Assembly: GCF_000969985.1 (NCBI RefSeq)
Contig: NZ_CP009526.1
Span: 3,596,001 to 3,660,000 of the forward strand
Source of the DNA: Methanosarcina barkeri str. Wiesmoor
GTDB lineage: Archaea; Halobacteriota; Methanosarcinia; Methanosarcinales; Methanosarcinaceae
DNA length: 64,000 nucleotides
Direction: 5' to 3'
Shown: in pieces, positions 31,185-43,175 of the stretch
How positions within the stretch are numbered: position 1 is the stretch's first letter
How the letters are laid out: each line of letters starts with the position of its first letter
Made by a program: the position numbers and the translations under genes
Notes under the pieces: generated by a model
The model's database searches: none
What the model saw: only the letters and a program-made list of their open reading frames with translations
Told to the model about the DNA's origin: nothing

Positions 31185-31586
31185 ATGATAGTTGTGGCAG
31201 ATAATGAGTCTATATCAGAGGACAATGAATTTAAGATGGGAGAGGTTGAATACGAGATGGTGGAGCTTTTGAGAAGGCTGAATATTAACAGGCCAGTTGC
31301 TCTCACTCTTGCGTGCCTCTCTAAAGGAGAGGAAATTTCTTCCCAACGCATCGAAATGGTATCAGGCTTGAGACAGCCAGAAGTTAGCATTGCAATGCGC
31401 TATCTCCGTGAAAATGACTGGGTAGATATGCGGGAAGAAAAGAAGAATCAGGGCAAAGGCAGACCGGTTAAATTGTATAAACTGACGGTCCGAATGGAAA
31501 CGATTATCAATTCAATAGAAGAAGACGTAATGGCTGAAAGTAAGGCCGTGCTCCAAAACATAGAACGCCTCAAGAGCCTTTCCTGA
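31185..31586 (+). CDS. winged-helix transcriptional regulator, paralog 1
   Basis: 133 residues with a helix-turn-helix of the MarR/ArsR kind: RPVALTLACLSKGEEISSQR IEMVSGLRQPEVSIAMRYLR ENDWV, then the wing KKNQGKGRPVKLYKLTV and a C-terminal helix that may pair two subunits. The paralog at 32758-33171 is nearly identical across the DNA-binding region. Neither sits in an operon, so targets are unknown; they may regulate themselves or each other. The start codon is ATG after ttggtag, with no strong ribosome site. Confidence 0.82.
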   Translation: MIVVADNESISEDNEFKMGEVEYEMVELLRRLNINRPVALTLACLSKGEEISSQRIEMVSGLRQPEVSIAMRYLRENDWVDMREEKKNQGKGRPVKLYKLTVRMETIINSIEEDVMAESKAVLQNIERLKSLS

Positions 31587-32757: not shown

Positions 32758-33171
32758 ATGGTAGATAAAAGTGGTCCAGTTATGAATATTTCTGACACAA
32801 AAGAAGAGACCCCGATAGCTATGGGATCAAATGAACATGAAATGATAGAATTATTTAGAAGAATTAACGTTAGTAGGCCAATTGCTCTTACGCTTGCATG
32901 CCTTGCAAAAGGAAATGAGATTTCGTCTCAGAACATTGAAATGGTATCAGGCTTGAGACAGCCTGAAGTTAGTGTTGCAATGCGTTATCTCCGCGAAAAT
33001 AACTGGATTAATATCCGGGAAGAAAAAAAATCAAGGGGTAAAGGCAGACCGGTAAAGTTATACAGGCTTACAGTCCCGATGGATTATATTGTCAGCAAGA
33101 TCGAAGAAGATATTGTAGCCGAAAGCAAAATCGTGTTCAAAAACATTGAACGCCTGAAGCGCATTGCCTGA
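32758..33171 (+). CDS. winged-helix transcriptional regulator, paralog 2
   Basis: 137 residues. Same architecture as paralog 1: RPIALTLACLAKGNEISSQN IEMVSGLRQPEVSVAMRYLR ENNWI, wing RGKGRPVKLYRLTV, dimer helix IEEDIVAESKIVFKNIERLK. The N-terminal 25 residues differ from paralog 1 while the HTH is almost unchanged, implying that both bind similar sites. It has a clear TATA box and ribosome site. Confidence 0.82.
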   Translation: MVDKSGPVMNISDTKEETPIAMGSNEHEMIELFRRINVSRPIALTLACLAKGNEISSQNIEMVSGLRQPEVSVAMRYLRENNWINIREEKKSRGKGRPVKLYRLTVPMDYIVSKIEEDIVAESKIVFKNIERLKRIA

Positions 33172-34855: not shown

Positions 34856-35160
34856 ACGAGTTAAACAGATTAAGCAGGTTAAACAGGTTAAACAGTCCAA
34901 ATAATCCTGATCAATACCACTTTTTTCGTGTCTTGAACCATCTCTAAATGGCTCTATATTTGTCCTTGGAGGTCAGTAGTTTTAGACCTGATTATGTGCC
35001 CCAAAGGTTTTAGCGATTATATCCCGGCAAAGACGGGAGAAATGAATGAAGTGGAAAGAGCAAGGGAAAAGCAGTAAAATATGAGAAACAGTGGCTATAA
35101 GCCTGAGTGCTGGGCAAAAAAGTTGGTTGTAAGGTGGTTCATAAGGTTTGATCTTCATCT

Positions 35161-35345
35161 ATGAAGCCTATTACGGGATCAGTTTTGAAGTTGTCCTGAA
35201 TTTACTCCATTTTACAGATACGCTTCAATGAAGTCTATTACGGGATCAGTTTTGAAGCTGTCCTGAATTTGCCTCATTTTACGGATACGCGCAATGAAGT
35301 ATATCGCGGGATCAGATTTCAAGCTGTCCTGAATTTACCCCACAG
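35161..35345. repeat. 67-bp tandem repeat, 3 units
   Basis: Units beginning atgaagYctattacgggatc at 35161, 35228 and 35294; the third is more diverged (tatatcgcggg) and slightly shorter. Each has the phrase agctgtcctgaattt. No reading frame persists through them. Confidence 0.88.
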
Positions 35346-36051
35346 ATTACTCCCTCATGAACCAATTAATACTATACAATTACTATTATAAAAAACTAAT
35401 CATTTATTTAAATTTACTTAAACTGTTTACATATTTAATGGGCTTATTGCCAGAAAAGAATACGGCTTTATAGAAATCCCCTGAAATAACGATTTTCAAC
35501 TAATTTGAACTGAATAGCTAGATCTATTTTTGCTGATTAAATTAGCAGCTTCTCGAAACTGATTAAGATCGTTTTTTACAAAGCTGTATAGATAAATATA
35601 TAAAAATTCCCTTATTATTATCATATAAGTTTTATTCCGGTATCGTCTTTAGTTTATCAGGATTATATTGAAAGCGTTGTACAGTTGGGTGCTGTCAAAC
35701 GCTGAAATGATAAACATCTGGTTATTAAGGGGTCATGAAATAGCTCACTAATAAATATTGCAGAAGATGATTGTTAAACTATTCAGAAATCGATAACAGC
35801 CAGATAAGCAAACAAAATGAGTTGCTGTTTTTGCAGACTTCTGCAGTTGGCAATGATAATTCTTGGACAGGGGGATTAGATGGAGAAAGCTCCAATTGCG
35901 CTAATGACGGTGGAAACACGCACAGCAGGATGCCTGACCAGTCTGATCATGCTATTTTCGTCGTACGAAAATACCTGGTGGCAGAACATATTCCGAAAAT
36001 TGAAAAGATCTGAGGCTGCTCATTTAAGTTTCTGGAACTGGAGGTTTCGCA

Positions 36052-36291
36052 ATGCTTCGAATTGTGGTCGACCTGAACCGATGTGAGAGCTACGCTCAGT
36101 GCGTATTTGCCGCACCGACGGTATTCTGGATGAAAGATGAAGAGTCGCTTGAATTTGATTATGCACCGGATGATTCACTACGAGTGCAGGTAGAACGTGC
36201 AGCTGCAGCTTGCCCGGTACAGGCGATTAGTATTTGCTGGCTGGATGAGCAATCAGAGCAGCGGGGGGAAAATCACAATGAAAAGCAATGA
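36052..36291 (+). CDS. [3Fe-4S]-type ferredoxin of a P450 system
   Basis: 79-residue ferredoxin starting MLRIVVDLNRCESYAQCVFA APTVF with a second Cys in AAAACPVQAISI. The spacing C-x5-C...CP, with a non-Cys residue in the second position of the usual C-x2-C-x2-C motif, is the mark of the small ferredoxins that feed actinobacterial-type P450s. It lies directly before the reductase and the P450 on the same strand, with aactggaggtt as ribosome site. Bacterial in style, and the surrounding DNA is richer in G+C than the flanks. Confidence 0.88.
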   Translation: MLRIVVDLNRCESYAQCVFAAPTVFWMKDEESLEFDYAPDDSLRVQVERAAAACPVQAISICWLDEQSEQRGENHNEKQ

Positions 36292-37711
36292 TGCCAAGAA
36301 AACTGTCTCCTCTGTACAAAGAATAGTTATCCTCGGCGCCTCGTTGGCTGGTTTGAGTGCTGCAGAGGCACTTCGTTCCGAGGGATTTGCCGGGACGTTA
36401 ACTGTAATCGGCGATGAACCATATGCTCCCTATGATCGCCCGCCTCTGTCTAAAAATGTCCTCACAGGCTGGCTACCAGCAGAGCACACGACCTTACCGC
36501 AGAGTGTTGATCTACAGGCCGAGTGGTTGCTTGGTGTGCCCGCTACAGGGCTTAATCTGGATAACCGGGAGGTCGAGCTTGCCGATGGGAGACGGTTTGG
36601 ATTTGACCGTTTGTTGATCGCCACAGGGGCGCGTGCCAGGCCGTGGCCAGATTCGGCACAGGCTGCTCTTGATGGAGTTTGCCTATTGCGTACCCGCGAT
36701 GATGCTGCCCAGCTACGAGCCCGGTTAGCTGCCAGGCCGAAGCGAGTACTGGTGATTGGTGGTGGTTTCATCGGCTCCGAGGTTGCTTCAGTCTGCAGAG
36801 AACTAGGTCTGGCTGTCACAGTCACAGAACGCAGCGCTACACCTCTCATAGGCGCTCTCGGTGCGGCTGCGGGTACGCTTGCTGGCCAGCTCCAGCGCGT
36901 GCATGGCGTCGATCTGCGCTGCAACGTCACGGTTATGGCGCTGGAGGGAGATGAGAGTGGGCGGCTACGTCGTGCCTATCTTTCGGATGGCGATATACTC
37001 GATATCGATGTGGCTGTGATCGCTCTTGGAGCAATACGAAACGTCGAATGGTTACATAATTCTAGGCTGGCGTTTGACTCCCATGGGATAGCCTGTGATG
37101 CTGCCTGTCGTGCTTTTGATACCGATGGAATGGTCACAGATGACATTTTCGTTGCTGGGGACGTGGCTCGCTGGCCTCACCCGCTTTACGAAGGCGAGCT
37201 ACTGGCAGTCGAGCACTGGGGAAATGCTATTGAGCAGGCAAGGACGGCCGCACATAATATGGTGAGTGCTCCGACAGATCTCAGGGCATACAAAACCCTG
37301 CCCGCCTTCTGGTCTCGTCAGTTTGGTGTCAACCTGAAGACGGTCGGCCTTCTACGCTTCGCCGATGAAGTTGTGCTCACACAGGGCTCTATCTCGGAAC
37401 GCCGGTTGGTTGCAGCCTATGGCTACAAAGGCAGAATTGTTGCAGCGCTCACCGTAAATATGGCCCGCTGGTTGCCTGCTTACCGGGCAATGATCGAGGA
37501 CCGTGCACCGTTTCCGCCCGTACTTCATGCTCCTGATGGTCCAGCTGAGCTTCGGCCAGTTCCTGCCGGATTTCCATTTCGTGGACAACCTACCCACAGC
37601 CCTAATGCTACACAGACTGGTCCAGGTCCTAGCACACCTCCTCCAGAAGAATCGTCTACAAGCACCAAAGTGAAGGACCCTCGTGTACCGCCAGGGTTCC
37701 GGCCCAAATGA
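36278..37711 (+). CDS. FAD/NAD-dependent ferredoxin reductase of the P450 system
   Basis: 477 residues from the ATG at 36278 (MKSNDAKKTVSSVQRIVILG), chosen for the ggggggaa site upstream; the gene overlaps the ferredoxin by 14 bp. FAD motif VILGASLAGLSAAEALRSEG, NAD motif VLVIGGGFIGSEVASVCREL, and the second FAD motif DDIFVAGDVARWPHP. It is a putidaredoxin-reductase-like enzyme that moves electrons from NAD(P)H to the ferredoxin. The last ~65 residues are a Pro/Ser/Thr-rich tail (PGPSTPPPEESSTSTKVKDP) not usual in the family. Probably acquired from bacteria together with its neighbours. Confidence 0.92.
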   Translation: MKSNDAKKTVSSVQRIVILGASLAGLSAAEALRSEGFAGTLTVIGDEPYAPYDRPPLSKNVLTGWLPAEHTTLPQSVDLQAEWLLGVPATGLNLDNREVELADGRRFGFDRLLIATGARARPWPDSAQAALDGVCLLRTRDDAAQLRARLAARPKRVLVIGGGFIGSEVASVCRELGLAVTVTERSATPLIGALGAAAGTLAGQLQRVHGVDLRCNVTVMALEGDESGRLRRAYLSDGDILDIDVAVIALGAIRNVEWLHNSRLAFDSHGIACDAACRAFDTDGMVTDDIFVAGDVARWPHPLYEGELLAVEHWGNAIEQARTAAHNMVSAPTDLRAYKTLPAFWSRQFGVNLKTVGLLRFADEVVLTQGSISERRLVAAYGYKGRIVAALTVNMARWLPAYRAMIEDRAPFPPVLHAPDGPAELRPVPAGFPFRGQPTHSPNATQTGPGPSTPPPEESSTSTKVKDPRVPPGFRPK

Positions 37712-37724
37712 CAGGAGGCAGACC

Positions 37725-39053
37725 ATGACACAGCAATCCTTGTATGAGCAGGTTCTTGACTACGCCAATCGTGCCAATCCTTATCCTCTATATGCCAAAC
37801 TACGCCAGACACCAATTACGCGACAGATAGATGGTAGCTACGTTGTCAGTACTTACCGGGAGATTGTCTCGCTACTTCATGATCCCAGGATTGGTTCAGA
37901 CTTCCGCATGCGTTCCGCTCACGATCGTCCTTCTGCAGGCCTTTCGGCAAATCAGGAGCTCGCCTCTAAAAATCAGGCGCAGGACGAAGGCGCGGAAACA
38001 TCCTCATCCAACCAGGGTTCAGAAACTGAAGTTGTTCCAAGCTTCATTGGTCTGGACCCACCTGAACATGATAGACTGCGCCGGCAGGCTACATGGCCTT
38101 TTGGTCCCCCGCACACACCGGGCAGAGTGGCTGACATGGAACCTGAACTGATCCTCCTTGCAAATCGACAGATAGATACTATAAAGGGCAGGACATCGAT
38201 TGACATCGTCGAGGACTTTGCTTATCCAATCCCGGTAACGATGATCAGTGAGCTACTTGGGGTACCACCCGAGGATCAGCCACGCCTTCACGCTTTATCA
38301 GAAGCTATTATCGAAGACATTGATCTGGATCCCCGACAAAGCCCGGAGGAACAAAAGCGGCGACAAGAACAGTCTAGTCAGACCTTTAAGGAGCTCGAAC
38401 AATATATGGAGGTGCTGATTGAGCACCATCGCAAGCAGCCTGGTTCTGACCTGCTTTCAGGACTCATAACAGACCATGGTTCCGATGGGCCGATGGCCCA
38501 GGCAGATCTTGTGAGCACTGCAAGCTTGTTGCTCATTGCCGGTCATGAGACCACAGTGAACCTGATTACCAACGGCATGCTCACACTGTTGAGACATCCT
38601 GATGTCCTCGAACGGTTACGGCGCGAACCAGATCTGGTTATTCGTCTGGTTGAGGAGTTTTTACGCTACGAGCCTCCTGTCCAGATTCTGCCAAATCGCG
38701 TGGCACTTTCCGATATTACTATTGCCGGTACTACGATTCAGAAAGGCTCACCTGTGATTCTGCTGCTTGCCTCTGGAAGCCGTGATCCGGCTCGTTTCCA
38801 CGATCCCGAGAAATTCGACCCTGATCGCAGGGATAATATGCACCTTGGCTTTGGCAGCGGCATCCATTACTGTTATGGCGCTCCACTTGCAAGGTTGGAA
38901 ACGCAGATTGCACTAACAGAGCTTGTACAACGGCTCGAAAACCCCAGGCTCGCGCATGATCCACCCCCATACCGGCAGAGTGCTACTCTACGAGGACCGC
39001 GACATCTCATTGTTGAGATCGATGGCGTGAAGGACTGGGAGTTCCATTTATGA
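37725..39053 (+). CDS. cytochrome P450
   Basis: 442-residue soluble bacterial-class P450 starting MTQQSLYEQVLDYANRANPY PLYAKLR with aggaggc as ribosome site. Heme ligand loop FGSGIHYCYGAPLAR (Cys in F-G-x-G-x-H-x-C-x-G), I-helix LLIAGHETTVNLI with the acid-Thr pair for oxygen activation, K-helix EEFLRYEPP (ExxR) and the L-helix are all intact. A hydrophilic stretch (about residues 70-105, NQAQDEGAETSSSNQGSETE) is inserted before the usual FIGLDPPEHDRLRR. P450s hydroxylate small organic molecules with O2; the substrate here is unknown. Its partners are encoded just upstream. This is unexpected in a strict anaerobe. Confidence 0.95.
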   Translation: MTQQSLYEQVLDYANRANPYPLYAKLRQTPITRQIDGSYVVSTYREIVSLLHDPRIGSDFRMRSAHDRPSAGLSANQELASKNQAQDEGAETSSSNQGSETEVVPSFIGLDPPEHDRLRRQATWPFGPPHTPGRVADMEPELILLANRQIDTIKGRTSIDIVEDFAYPIPVTMISELLGVPPEDQPRLHALSEAIIEDIDLDPRQSPEEQKRRQEQSSQTFKELEQYMEVLIEHHRKQPGSDLLSGLITDHGSDGPMAQADLVSTASLLLIAGHETTVNLITNGMLTLLRHPDVLERLRREPDLVIRLVEEFLRYEPPVQILPNRVALSDITIAGTTIQKGSPVILLLASGSRDPARFHDPEKFDPDRRDNMHLGFGSGIHYCYGAPLARLETQIALTELVQRLENPRLAHDPPPYRQSATLRGPRHLIVEIDGVKDWEFHL

Positions 39054-39054
39054 T

Positions 39055-39222
39055 TAAACCGACTTGAAGTTTCCACTGCACTTTCATTGTCAGCAGGAGC
39101 TTCATAAAAAACAATTTCTTCATCATAGAGAGTAAGGAGGAGCTCCAGGACTTGTAGAGGCAGCCACCTGGGAGTTCGTCTTTATATTTATCTGCAACTT
39201 GCAGAGTAGTAGTTATTTCCAT
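39055..39222 (-). pseudogene. short gene relic next to the P450 stop
   Basis: From an ATG at 39222 the minus strand reads MEITTTLQVADKYKDELPG; after a one-base shift it reads WLPLQVLELLLTLYDEEIVF YEAPADNESAVE and then runs into the P450 coding region. It may be the stump of a gene cut off when the P450 segment arrived, but it could be chance. Confidence 0.3.
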
Positions 39223-39383
39223 CTTTCTAAATATCTATTCCAGACTAAACATCTATTCCAGAAAAATCGGTGCTCAGTAAGATTTAATGATCTTCAAGGA
39301 AACAAACCAGCTTAGCAACCTGAAAAAAACTCTTACAATCCGTTATAACAAGTACAAATGGAGGCGTTAGTCAGTCAATTGTT
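39223..39383. other. spacer between P450 island and sensor kinase
   Basis: Convergent gene ends; a small direct repeat actaaacatctattccaga occurs twice near 39242-39262. No gene. Confidence 0.5.
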
Positions 39384-42300: not shown

Positions 42301-43175
42301 CGATCCTTAAGCAACCGCCGTTGTGGGCAAAAAGAAGGTGGCTTGTCTGTCCCATGGATAACACGATAGCAGGTTAACCCTATGCACTCTTCAGGTGTCA
42401 TCCCCAATCTTGCCGCAATGGCTTTGTTCGCACGAACAACTCTATATTTATCGTCGATTATGGCTACCAGGTCTGGCACAGCATCAAAGGTATATTCCCA
42501 GTTTTTTGCAGCTCGAATAGCTTTTTCTTCTGCTCTCTTCCTTCCGGAATTTTCTATACGCTTCCATATTCCTTTCCTTTTGATCAAGGCAAATTGATGG
42601 CTGGAGACTACATCAATAATCTCGGCCGTATTGCACATATCGAGATAATACGGACATAATGCTATCACATGGTTTTTGGCGATAACAGCATCTACTTTAT
42701 TTTCATATTCAACAAACTCATTCCAGCTTTCTTTTCCCAGCCCGTGATTGTCCCCTGCAGCTCTCAGTCCATCATAACCCCTTGCCAGAGCCTGGTTGAT
42801 TTTTTCAACACAGCTATTTACGACTCTGTCTGGATCGAAAATGTCATCCTTTAAATATCCACTGTTGTAAGAGATGATTTCGATTTGTCCTTTCTCCAGA
42901 TAAACATCAAAATCAGGAATAGCTCTTTTCATGGCTGCTTTTGCCTCTTCCATTTCCAGAGGCTGTGAAGTAATCCATACGCATAATTCGTTATTTTCCA
43001 GCCCGGTTTTAAAATAAGGAATAAGTATATCCATCAAGTCTTCTTTTGTCTGATAGAACTGGCAGAAGTGTGTTCCCCAGGACACCTCGCCAACAATATC
43101 AATCCCAGAATCTCTAGTGTTTTTTTTCATGGGTATTGTCTCCGGGTTTTGAGAATAACAGGATAAAAATTTCAT
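39384..43175 (-). CDS. MEDS/PAS/GAF multi-sensor histidine kinase
   Basis: 1263-residue cytoplasmic sensor kinase. The N-terminal MEDS domain (about 25-195; EVSWGTHFCQFYQTKEDLMD) is the DcmR-type sensor common in Methanosarcina. A PAS with a Cys-rich insert (ECIGLTCYRVIHGTDKPPSF CPQRR, to ~335) follows, then a GAF domain (~345-520), four more PAS/PAC domains with DITERKK-like ends, and a coiled linker (EEALKKVHESLEEKVKERTS). The HisKA_2 box HHRIKNNLQVISSLLDLQA is near 1055, and the ATPase domain carries DNGVGIP and GTEFSIRF. No membrane helix. No response regulator lies nearby. An internal start at Met16 is possible. Confidence 0.92.
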   Translation of the reverse strand: MKFLSCYSQNPETIPMKKNTRDSGIDIVGEVSWGTHFCQFYQTKEDLMDILIPYFKTGLENNELCVWITSQPLEMEEAKAAMKRAIPDFDVYLEKGQIEIISYNSGYLKDDIFDPDRVVNSCVEKINQALARGYDGLRAAGDNHGLGKESWNEFVEYENKVDAVIAKNHVIALCPYYLDMCNTAEIIDVVSSHQFALIKRKGIWKRIENSGRKRAEEKAIRAAKNWEYTFDAVPDLVAIIDDKYRVVRANKAIAARLGMTPEECIGLTCYRVIHGTDKPPSFCPQRRLLKDRDEHTAETCEGCLGDNFLVNISPLYDSEGKNIGSVYVARDIAKRKQEEHRIRRYNRILEGINRIFSNVVQAKTEEELGEACLSVALEVTSSHFGFINEMGADGLLHDVAKSDLAWEQCLMYDRIEHRSPPGDFAVHGLYGSVIKNEKGFFTNDPLLHPDSIGLPHGHPPITSFLGVPLVQDGKTIGLIAIANNEGGYSYEHQEDLEAIAPAVMQALQRKRSEEALKLSNIYNRNLIEASLDPLVTIGRDGKITDVNNATEQITGYSRNELIGTDFSDYFTEPEKARTGYQQVFKDGEVRDYSLGIQHKDGHITSVLYNASVYRDEKGKVIGVFATARDITELKKAEEALKKVHESLEEKVKERTSELEKAYNSLKESEKRLAEAQKIAQIGNWDWDLVTGEAYWSDEMYRIFERNPHESGATYEELLDYIHPDDRDYVDHTIKKALNKKPLGIDYRIVRANGEERTVHSQPEIIFDEKNNPVRVKGVVQDITERKKSEEKLQILANAVESSNDAIITLSFDGTISSWNKAAEQIYGYLAERIMGKDVSILEPENIKGEIKQFSEKIKQGKKIQHYETSRLRKDGTIINISATLSPVFDVAGKLVAISAIVRDITEHIKAEEALRESEARLRQFYESDMLGVFYFNIDGSITDANDKLLDIVGYTRKDLQAGKVKWNKMTPPEYFSLDERAIAELKTIGVREPQEKEYIRKDGSQVPVIVGVATFNQAHNEGIAFVLDITEKKKAEEDLANLEIARKKEIHHRIKNNLQVISSLLDLQADKFDNPRVIEAFRESQNRVISMALIHEELYKGEETETLDFSAYIRELAENLFQTYSLSNKNTLLKMNLEEHAFFDMDVAVPLGIIVNELVSNSLKHAFSGRYRGEIQIELHRDENWENRKKGNRCTSFVLTVSDNGVGIPEDFNIEDLDSLGFQLITTLVDQLDGELELKRNAGTEFSIRFAVKEVNNNQNQLL

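Follow-up and report, generated by a model that had tools for sequence, protein, structure and literature searches.

What does a methanogen do with a complete oxygenase chain? This question, to which we found no published answer in the open-access literature, is raised by an operon at 36052-39053 of a 64,000-nucleotide stretch of Methanosarcina barkeri str. Wiesmoor DNA, referred to as a whole as the window. The operon consists of three intact genes for a ferredoxin, an FAD ferredoxin reductase (FdR) and a CYP147-type cytochrome P450, the last being the sole P450 of the M. barkeri Wiesmoor genome. On balance, we lean slightly towards reading it as an O2-dependent class I P450 system that would have been placed behind a copied host promoter and would be co-regulated with reductive detoxification. 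The coding part and its surroundings are laid out as follows:

35503..39078, + strand: the whole unit of promoter, leader and three genes, delimited by aligning five relatives to the window with blastn
36040..36044, + strand: GGAGG, ribosome-binding site of fdx
36052..36291, + strand: fdx, ferredoxin of 79 aa with a CxxYxxC(n)CP motif, expected to hold a [3Fe-4S] cluster
36278..37711, + strand: FdR, FAD ferredoxin reductase of putidaredoxin-reductase type, 477 aa from ATG
37725..39053, + strand: P450, CYP147-type cytochrome P450, 442 aa from ATG

The first-pass annotation had described a complete chain of overlapping or closely spaced genes with Shine-Dalgarno sites and all catalytic motifs, and this description holds in every part. 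The start of FdR overlaps the end of fdx by 14 nt, a gap of 13 nt separates the FdR stop from the P450 start, and GGGGGGA precedes FdR and AGGAGG precedes P450, as GGAGG does fdx. The existence of an intact operon is confirmed and far beyond chance. No reading frame of the operon is broken in any of the six carrier species, save for the position of the P450 C-terminal stop, and the 35503..39078 unit is kept in all of them, even at a differing chromosomal site. At 39039-39053, the window P450 reads WEFHL beyond the TGA stop of the other five Methanosarcina copies.

The proteins make up a class I chain, in which a putidaredoxin-reductase-type FAD reductase and a small Fe-S ferredoxin stand beside the P450. 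According to Pfam, the ferredoxin, with its motif CESYAQC..CP, belongs to Fer4_13/Fer4_15 (E about 3e-9), the reductase combines Pyr_redox_2 (E 2e-45) with Reductase_C (E 5e-12), and the P450 falls into family p450 (E 4e-34). The best PDB matches of FdR are 3lxd and putidaredoxin reductase. Its second Rossmann motif is followed by an acidic residue (VTVTE), the one feature from which a preference for NADH may be read. The P450 has the helix-I motif AGHET (found also in the G004 copy), ExxR in the form EFLR and the heme-thiolate loop FGSGIHYCYG (FGCGIHYCYG in the G028 copy), which conforms to the FxxGxxxCxG pattern of the superfamily. AlphaFold2 predicts a P450 fold (mean pLDDT 83, pTM 0.84), and the best PDB matches of the model are CYP109, CYP107 and CYP164 structures. 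Two stretches of the model are of low confidence: residues 66-101, predicted to be a low-complexity, disordered insert ahead of helix C, and residues 377-383, which belong to the heme loop.

The 2006 M. barkeri genome paper reportedly also mentions the P450 cluster. Since CYP147E1 of M. barkeri has already been published together with its ferredoxin and reductase (PMC6237146; PMC9962201), the chain itself is not new, and the first-pass guess that this locus type had been reported for the species proved right. As in the CYP147E1 operon, the P450 gene neighbours a ferredoxin reductase gene and a CXXYXXC(X)nCP ferredoxin gene, an arrangement given as a CYP147 trait (PMC6237146). Our CYP147 placement rests on that published name and on within-genus identity: CYP147E sequences of Methanosarcina share over 85% identity (PMC9962201), and the other five copies in our set are likewise 85-88% identical to the window P450. 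The window operon is probably the CYP147E1 locus itself or an ortholog of it. A general claim in the literature, that archaeal P450 operons do not include redox partners (PMC9962201), fails for this one. CYP147G1/Fdx3/reductase of Mycobacterium marinum (PMC6237146) likewise combines a CYP147 with a tyrosine-type ferredoxin and a reductase gene, but its host is an aerobic bacterium and fatty acid hydroxylation has been shown there; CYP147F1, like CYP147G1, hydroxylates fatty acids (PMC9962201). What we add to the CYP147E1 reports is the shared promoter and leader, the transfer of the whole triad, for which we argue below, and a wider bacterial sampling.

The coding composition of the operon is foreign, whereas that of the ~450 bp upstream is host-like. 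The G+C content is 0.538 in the operon as against 0.374 in the leader, 0.358 in the left flank, 0.386 in the right flank and 0.404 in the window as a whole, and it jumps where fdx begins. Measured against the other genes of the window, the codon-usage fit of the operon genes ranges from -0.03 to -0.05, compared with 0.071 +/- 0.025 (minimum 0.014) for 32 other window ORFs. Thus the G+C enrichment seen by eye at first pass is borne out. The same annotation had proposed a bacterial type, against which vertical archaeal descent or a composition equal to that of the neighbours would have spoken; neither was found. The proteins lie among bacterial operons in our trees, and the P450 did not group with other archaeal P450s: bacterial relatives are 50-61% identical to it, whereas all other matches in 393 genomes drawn from Halobacteriota reach at most 41%.

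Bacterial relatives carry the same operon. In a genome scan, the triad in identical gene order was present at 73 of 80 bacterial loci, and CxxYxxC in 109 of 112 ferredoxins. The class of Ktedonobacter, surveyed in 47 genomes, yielded 27 reductase loci, and 400 genomes of its phylum gave only one more match, a partial one. Ktedonobacterial CYP147-type triads (L119-L127, L134, L023) share the gene order, and in one clade the reductase is 66-72% identical to the archaeal FdR and ends in the same proline-rich C-terminal tail. They differ in the linked P450, which is 44-54% identical in the tail-sharing clade and 54-58% in the other. In quick trees of the bacterial relatives sampled here, the archaeal FdR and P450 fall among operons of Ktedonobacteria and Actinomycetota, close to where the two main groups part; FdR lies nearest one Ktedonobacterial clade, and P450 lies with another group. 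An AU test gave p 0.51 for placing FdR with Actinomycetota and the second Ktedonobacterial group, and p 0.085 for placing P450 with the first Ktedonobacterial clade. Since a common placement is not rejected, we do not claim a mosaic origin. With 73 of 80 bacterial loci carrying it, the whole triad is the ancestral bacterial unit, and this ancestry together with the tree placement indicates that the redox partners travelled with the P450. Myxococcus has been proposed as the donor (PMC9962201). As for the vehicle, a virus was considered and dropped, as no relative was found in viral contigs; plasmid-borne bacterial relatives exist and do not identify the vehicle. On one such plasmid, pMPPM03 of Methylorubrum populi (L014), a divergent TetR-family gene lies upstream of the triad, and genes for a catalase-family protein and a Dyp-type peroxidase follow it, a hint of peroxide-related use there.

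Within the genus the operon is patchily distributed. The P450 is carried by six of 31 Methanosarcina species genomes, scattered over the mcrA tree, and by no further genome among 112 Methanosarcinaceae genomes sampled. Four carriers have it at a common chromosomal site; in G012 it lies elsewhere, and in G002 the left side matches only partly. Operon distances do not strictly track mcrA distances (G000-G002 versus G000-G004), so some movement inside Methanosarcina is possible. Two near relatives, G003 and G030, lack the operon at the syntenic site. Left synteny with them breaks at 35447 and restarts at 39320 in G030 and at 42390 in G003. The operon-free site (L228, L229) holds a gene for a 332-aa YVTN-type repeat protein, named by eye, and G003 has in addition a transposase-like ORF and a disrupted gene for a histidine kinase there. 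Close to the left border, at 35160-35350, there are imperfect tandem repeats of ~65-75 bp (ATTACGGGATCAGTTTTGAAG..), which relatives with and without the operon also have.

Where present, the genes are under purifying selection, which indicates that all three are kept together: compared with the window species, dN/dS is 0.06-0.17 for fdx, 0.14-0.18 for FdR and 0.12-0.15 for P450, at synonymous distances of about 0.4-0.6. This evidence bears on the mode of catalysis. P450s are generally able to use peroxide as a shunt, and the enzyme might work as a peroxygenase, without O2 or its redox chain, consuming peroxides or oxidising lipids in oxygen stress. The peroxidase and catalase-family genes behind the Methylorubrum triad would fit such a role. 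However, the reductase and the ferredoxin match the P450 in both conservation and constraint, and the helix-I acid-alcohol pair, which dedicated CYP152 peroxygenases do not have, is invariant: AGHETT is the same across 21 sequences, the pattern expected for O2 activation. Nor does the P450 belong to CYP152, scoring 24 bits with a model whose cut-off is 600. The conserved pair and the equally constrained partners favour O2-dependent, partner-driven chemistry, and we consider peroxygenase action quite unlikely.

The best available clue to the use of the operon, one that the first-pass annotation had missed, lies in the ~450 bp ahead of it. They are homologous to the promoter–leader region of an Old Yellow Enzyme (OYE) operon of Methanosarcina, a link that we did not find in the open-access literature. 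Conservation among carrier species reaches upstream to about 35503 and includes the following elements:

35595..35714, + strand: promoter and leader-start module, an archaeal TATA-like box AATATATAAAAATTCC with the next 100 bp, common to Old-Yellow-Enzyme operons
35622..36051, + strand: leader of ~430 nt before the fdx start, its transcription start inferred from the TATA box
35652..35715, + strand: inverted repeat GTTTATCA..AGCGTT..AACGCT..TGATAAAC, inside the promoter module

In a full-leader alignment, the homology begins at the TATA box and spans most of the leader. A blastn search of 31 genomes with the window leader found, besides P450 copies, only promoters of OYE or GDE-OYE operons (G020, G001 and G004; E 1e-13 to 3e-7). 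The module also matches R1, a sequence-only model built from eight copies, with E 8e-30, this copy being a training member. Outside the training set, R1 copies precede OYE-operon genes in nine further genomes, counting the window's own, where the second copy lies at G000:C2:685373-685491 (E 1.4e-23). The operon behind it (G000:C2 near 680-685.5 kb, L183) thus shares a homologous promoter and leader with the P450 operon but has unrelated coding content, namely a TIGR03557 F420 oxidoreductase, a GDE-like hydrolase, a glutaredoxin-like protein and an N-ethylmaleimide-reductase-like OYE. Glutaredoxin, GDE-like hydrolase and F420 oxidoreductase often accompany OYE in such operons. At E below 1e-9 there are 15 strong copies outside the P450 operons. 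Counting the GDE-like hydrolase, the glutaredoxin-like protein and the TIGR03557 F420 oxidoreductase as operon partners, 13 of them stand ahead of an OYE gene or a partner; the exceptions are G004:C1:3866579-3866702 and G028:C77:3724-3848. The leaders of the P450 operons group together as one clade (100/100), suggesting a single recruitment that preceded the divergence of these copies.

It could be objected that the genes are a little-used passenger and that the leader, though shared, is a dispersed sequence with no regulatory role in common. The patchy distribution, the many repeats close to the left border and the two orphan module copies with no OYE gene behind them would all agree with this, as would the G028 locus (L020, G028:C516; a draft assembly), where the leader is cleanly deleted and the promoter/TATA region abuts the ribosome-binding site. 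As the genes of G028 are intact all the same, the leader may be dispensable. Set against this are the purifying selection across the triad (synonymous distances 0.4-0.6), the position of 13 out of 15 strong copies ahead of OYE-operon genes and the extent of the homology, from the TATA box through most of the leader. A mere passenger therefore seems improbable to us, and we retain recruitment under a copied promoter as the preferred reading.

How the promoter might be controlled can be narrowed down to some extent. The inverted repeat folds with a z of -3.4, compared with -0.3 for the whole leader. In its inner stem, 89% of cells are paired in 20 copies, but covariation is no stronger than in shuffled data, 94 of 500 shuffles reaching its score. 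The repeat may act as an operator or form an RNA hairpin. The leader has no Rfam match, and a small protein encoded in it was rejected, its frames being broken between species. Control by MsvR was likewise rejected, as neither promoter nor leader has the TTCGN7-9CGAA box of this regulator (PMC3729527); its three matches in the window are about what chance predicts (2.4). A stretch at 36046-36061, TTCGCAATGCTTCGAA, fits TTCGN8CGAA over the fdx start codon, an unlikely place for an operator.

The preferred scenario would then run as follows. Methanosarcina would have acquired a complete class I system as a single operon, the donor being a bacterium from the pool of CYP147 operons that occurs in Ktedonobacteria and Actinomycetota. 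The operon would have ended up downstream of a copied native promoter and leader, other copies of which stand ahead of the OYE operon. Reduced pyridine nucleotide, probably NADH, would reduce the FAD reductase, which would reduce the ferredoxin, and the latter would pass electrons to the P450. Using O2 met during transient oxygen exposure, the P450 might hydroxylate a hydrophobic molecule, either a long-chain or isoprenoid compound or a xenobiotic, with expression coordinated with Old Yellow Enzyme, the glutaredoxin-like protein and the F420 oxidoreductase. Several points count against this scenario: methanogens do not use NADH as a main carrier; fatty acids, the known substrate type of CYP147, are not what archaeal membranes consist of; and the closest relatives, G003 and G030, do without the operon.

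Reduced P450s can also pass electrons to halogenated compounds, and the chain might be reductive under anoxia, serving, for example, dehalogenation or the reduction of nitrogen oxides or nitro compounds. An anaerobic host and reductases encoded by the co-promoted OYE operon are what one would expect in that case. We nevertheless regard reductive use as unlikely, given that the residues for O2 activation are strictly conserved in the archaeal copies and that the surveyed bacterial relatives come from mostly aerobic groups. Returning to the O2-dependent reading, it is tempting to speculate further, though we would sooner bet against this broader proposal than on it, that the promoter/leader module marks a small Methanosarcina regulon for reductive detoxification, to which some species would have added the captured oxygenase chain, giving a controlled O2-dependent P450 reaction upon exposure to oxygen or electrophiles. 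The interpretation offered at first pass is, taken as a whole, partly supported. In any case, the promoter link narrows the question from any substrate or condition to the conditions that induce the OYE operon.

The neighbouring genes were rejected as functional partners, as the flanks are not conserved at other insertion sites. Among these neighbours, 31185-31586 and 32758-33171 encode adjacent paralogous proteins, helix-turn-helix-like by eye, which are found in syntenic relatives as well.
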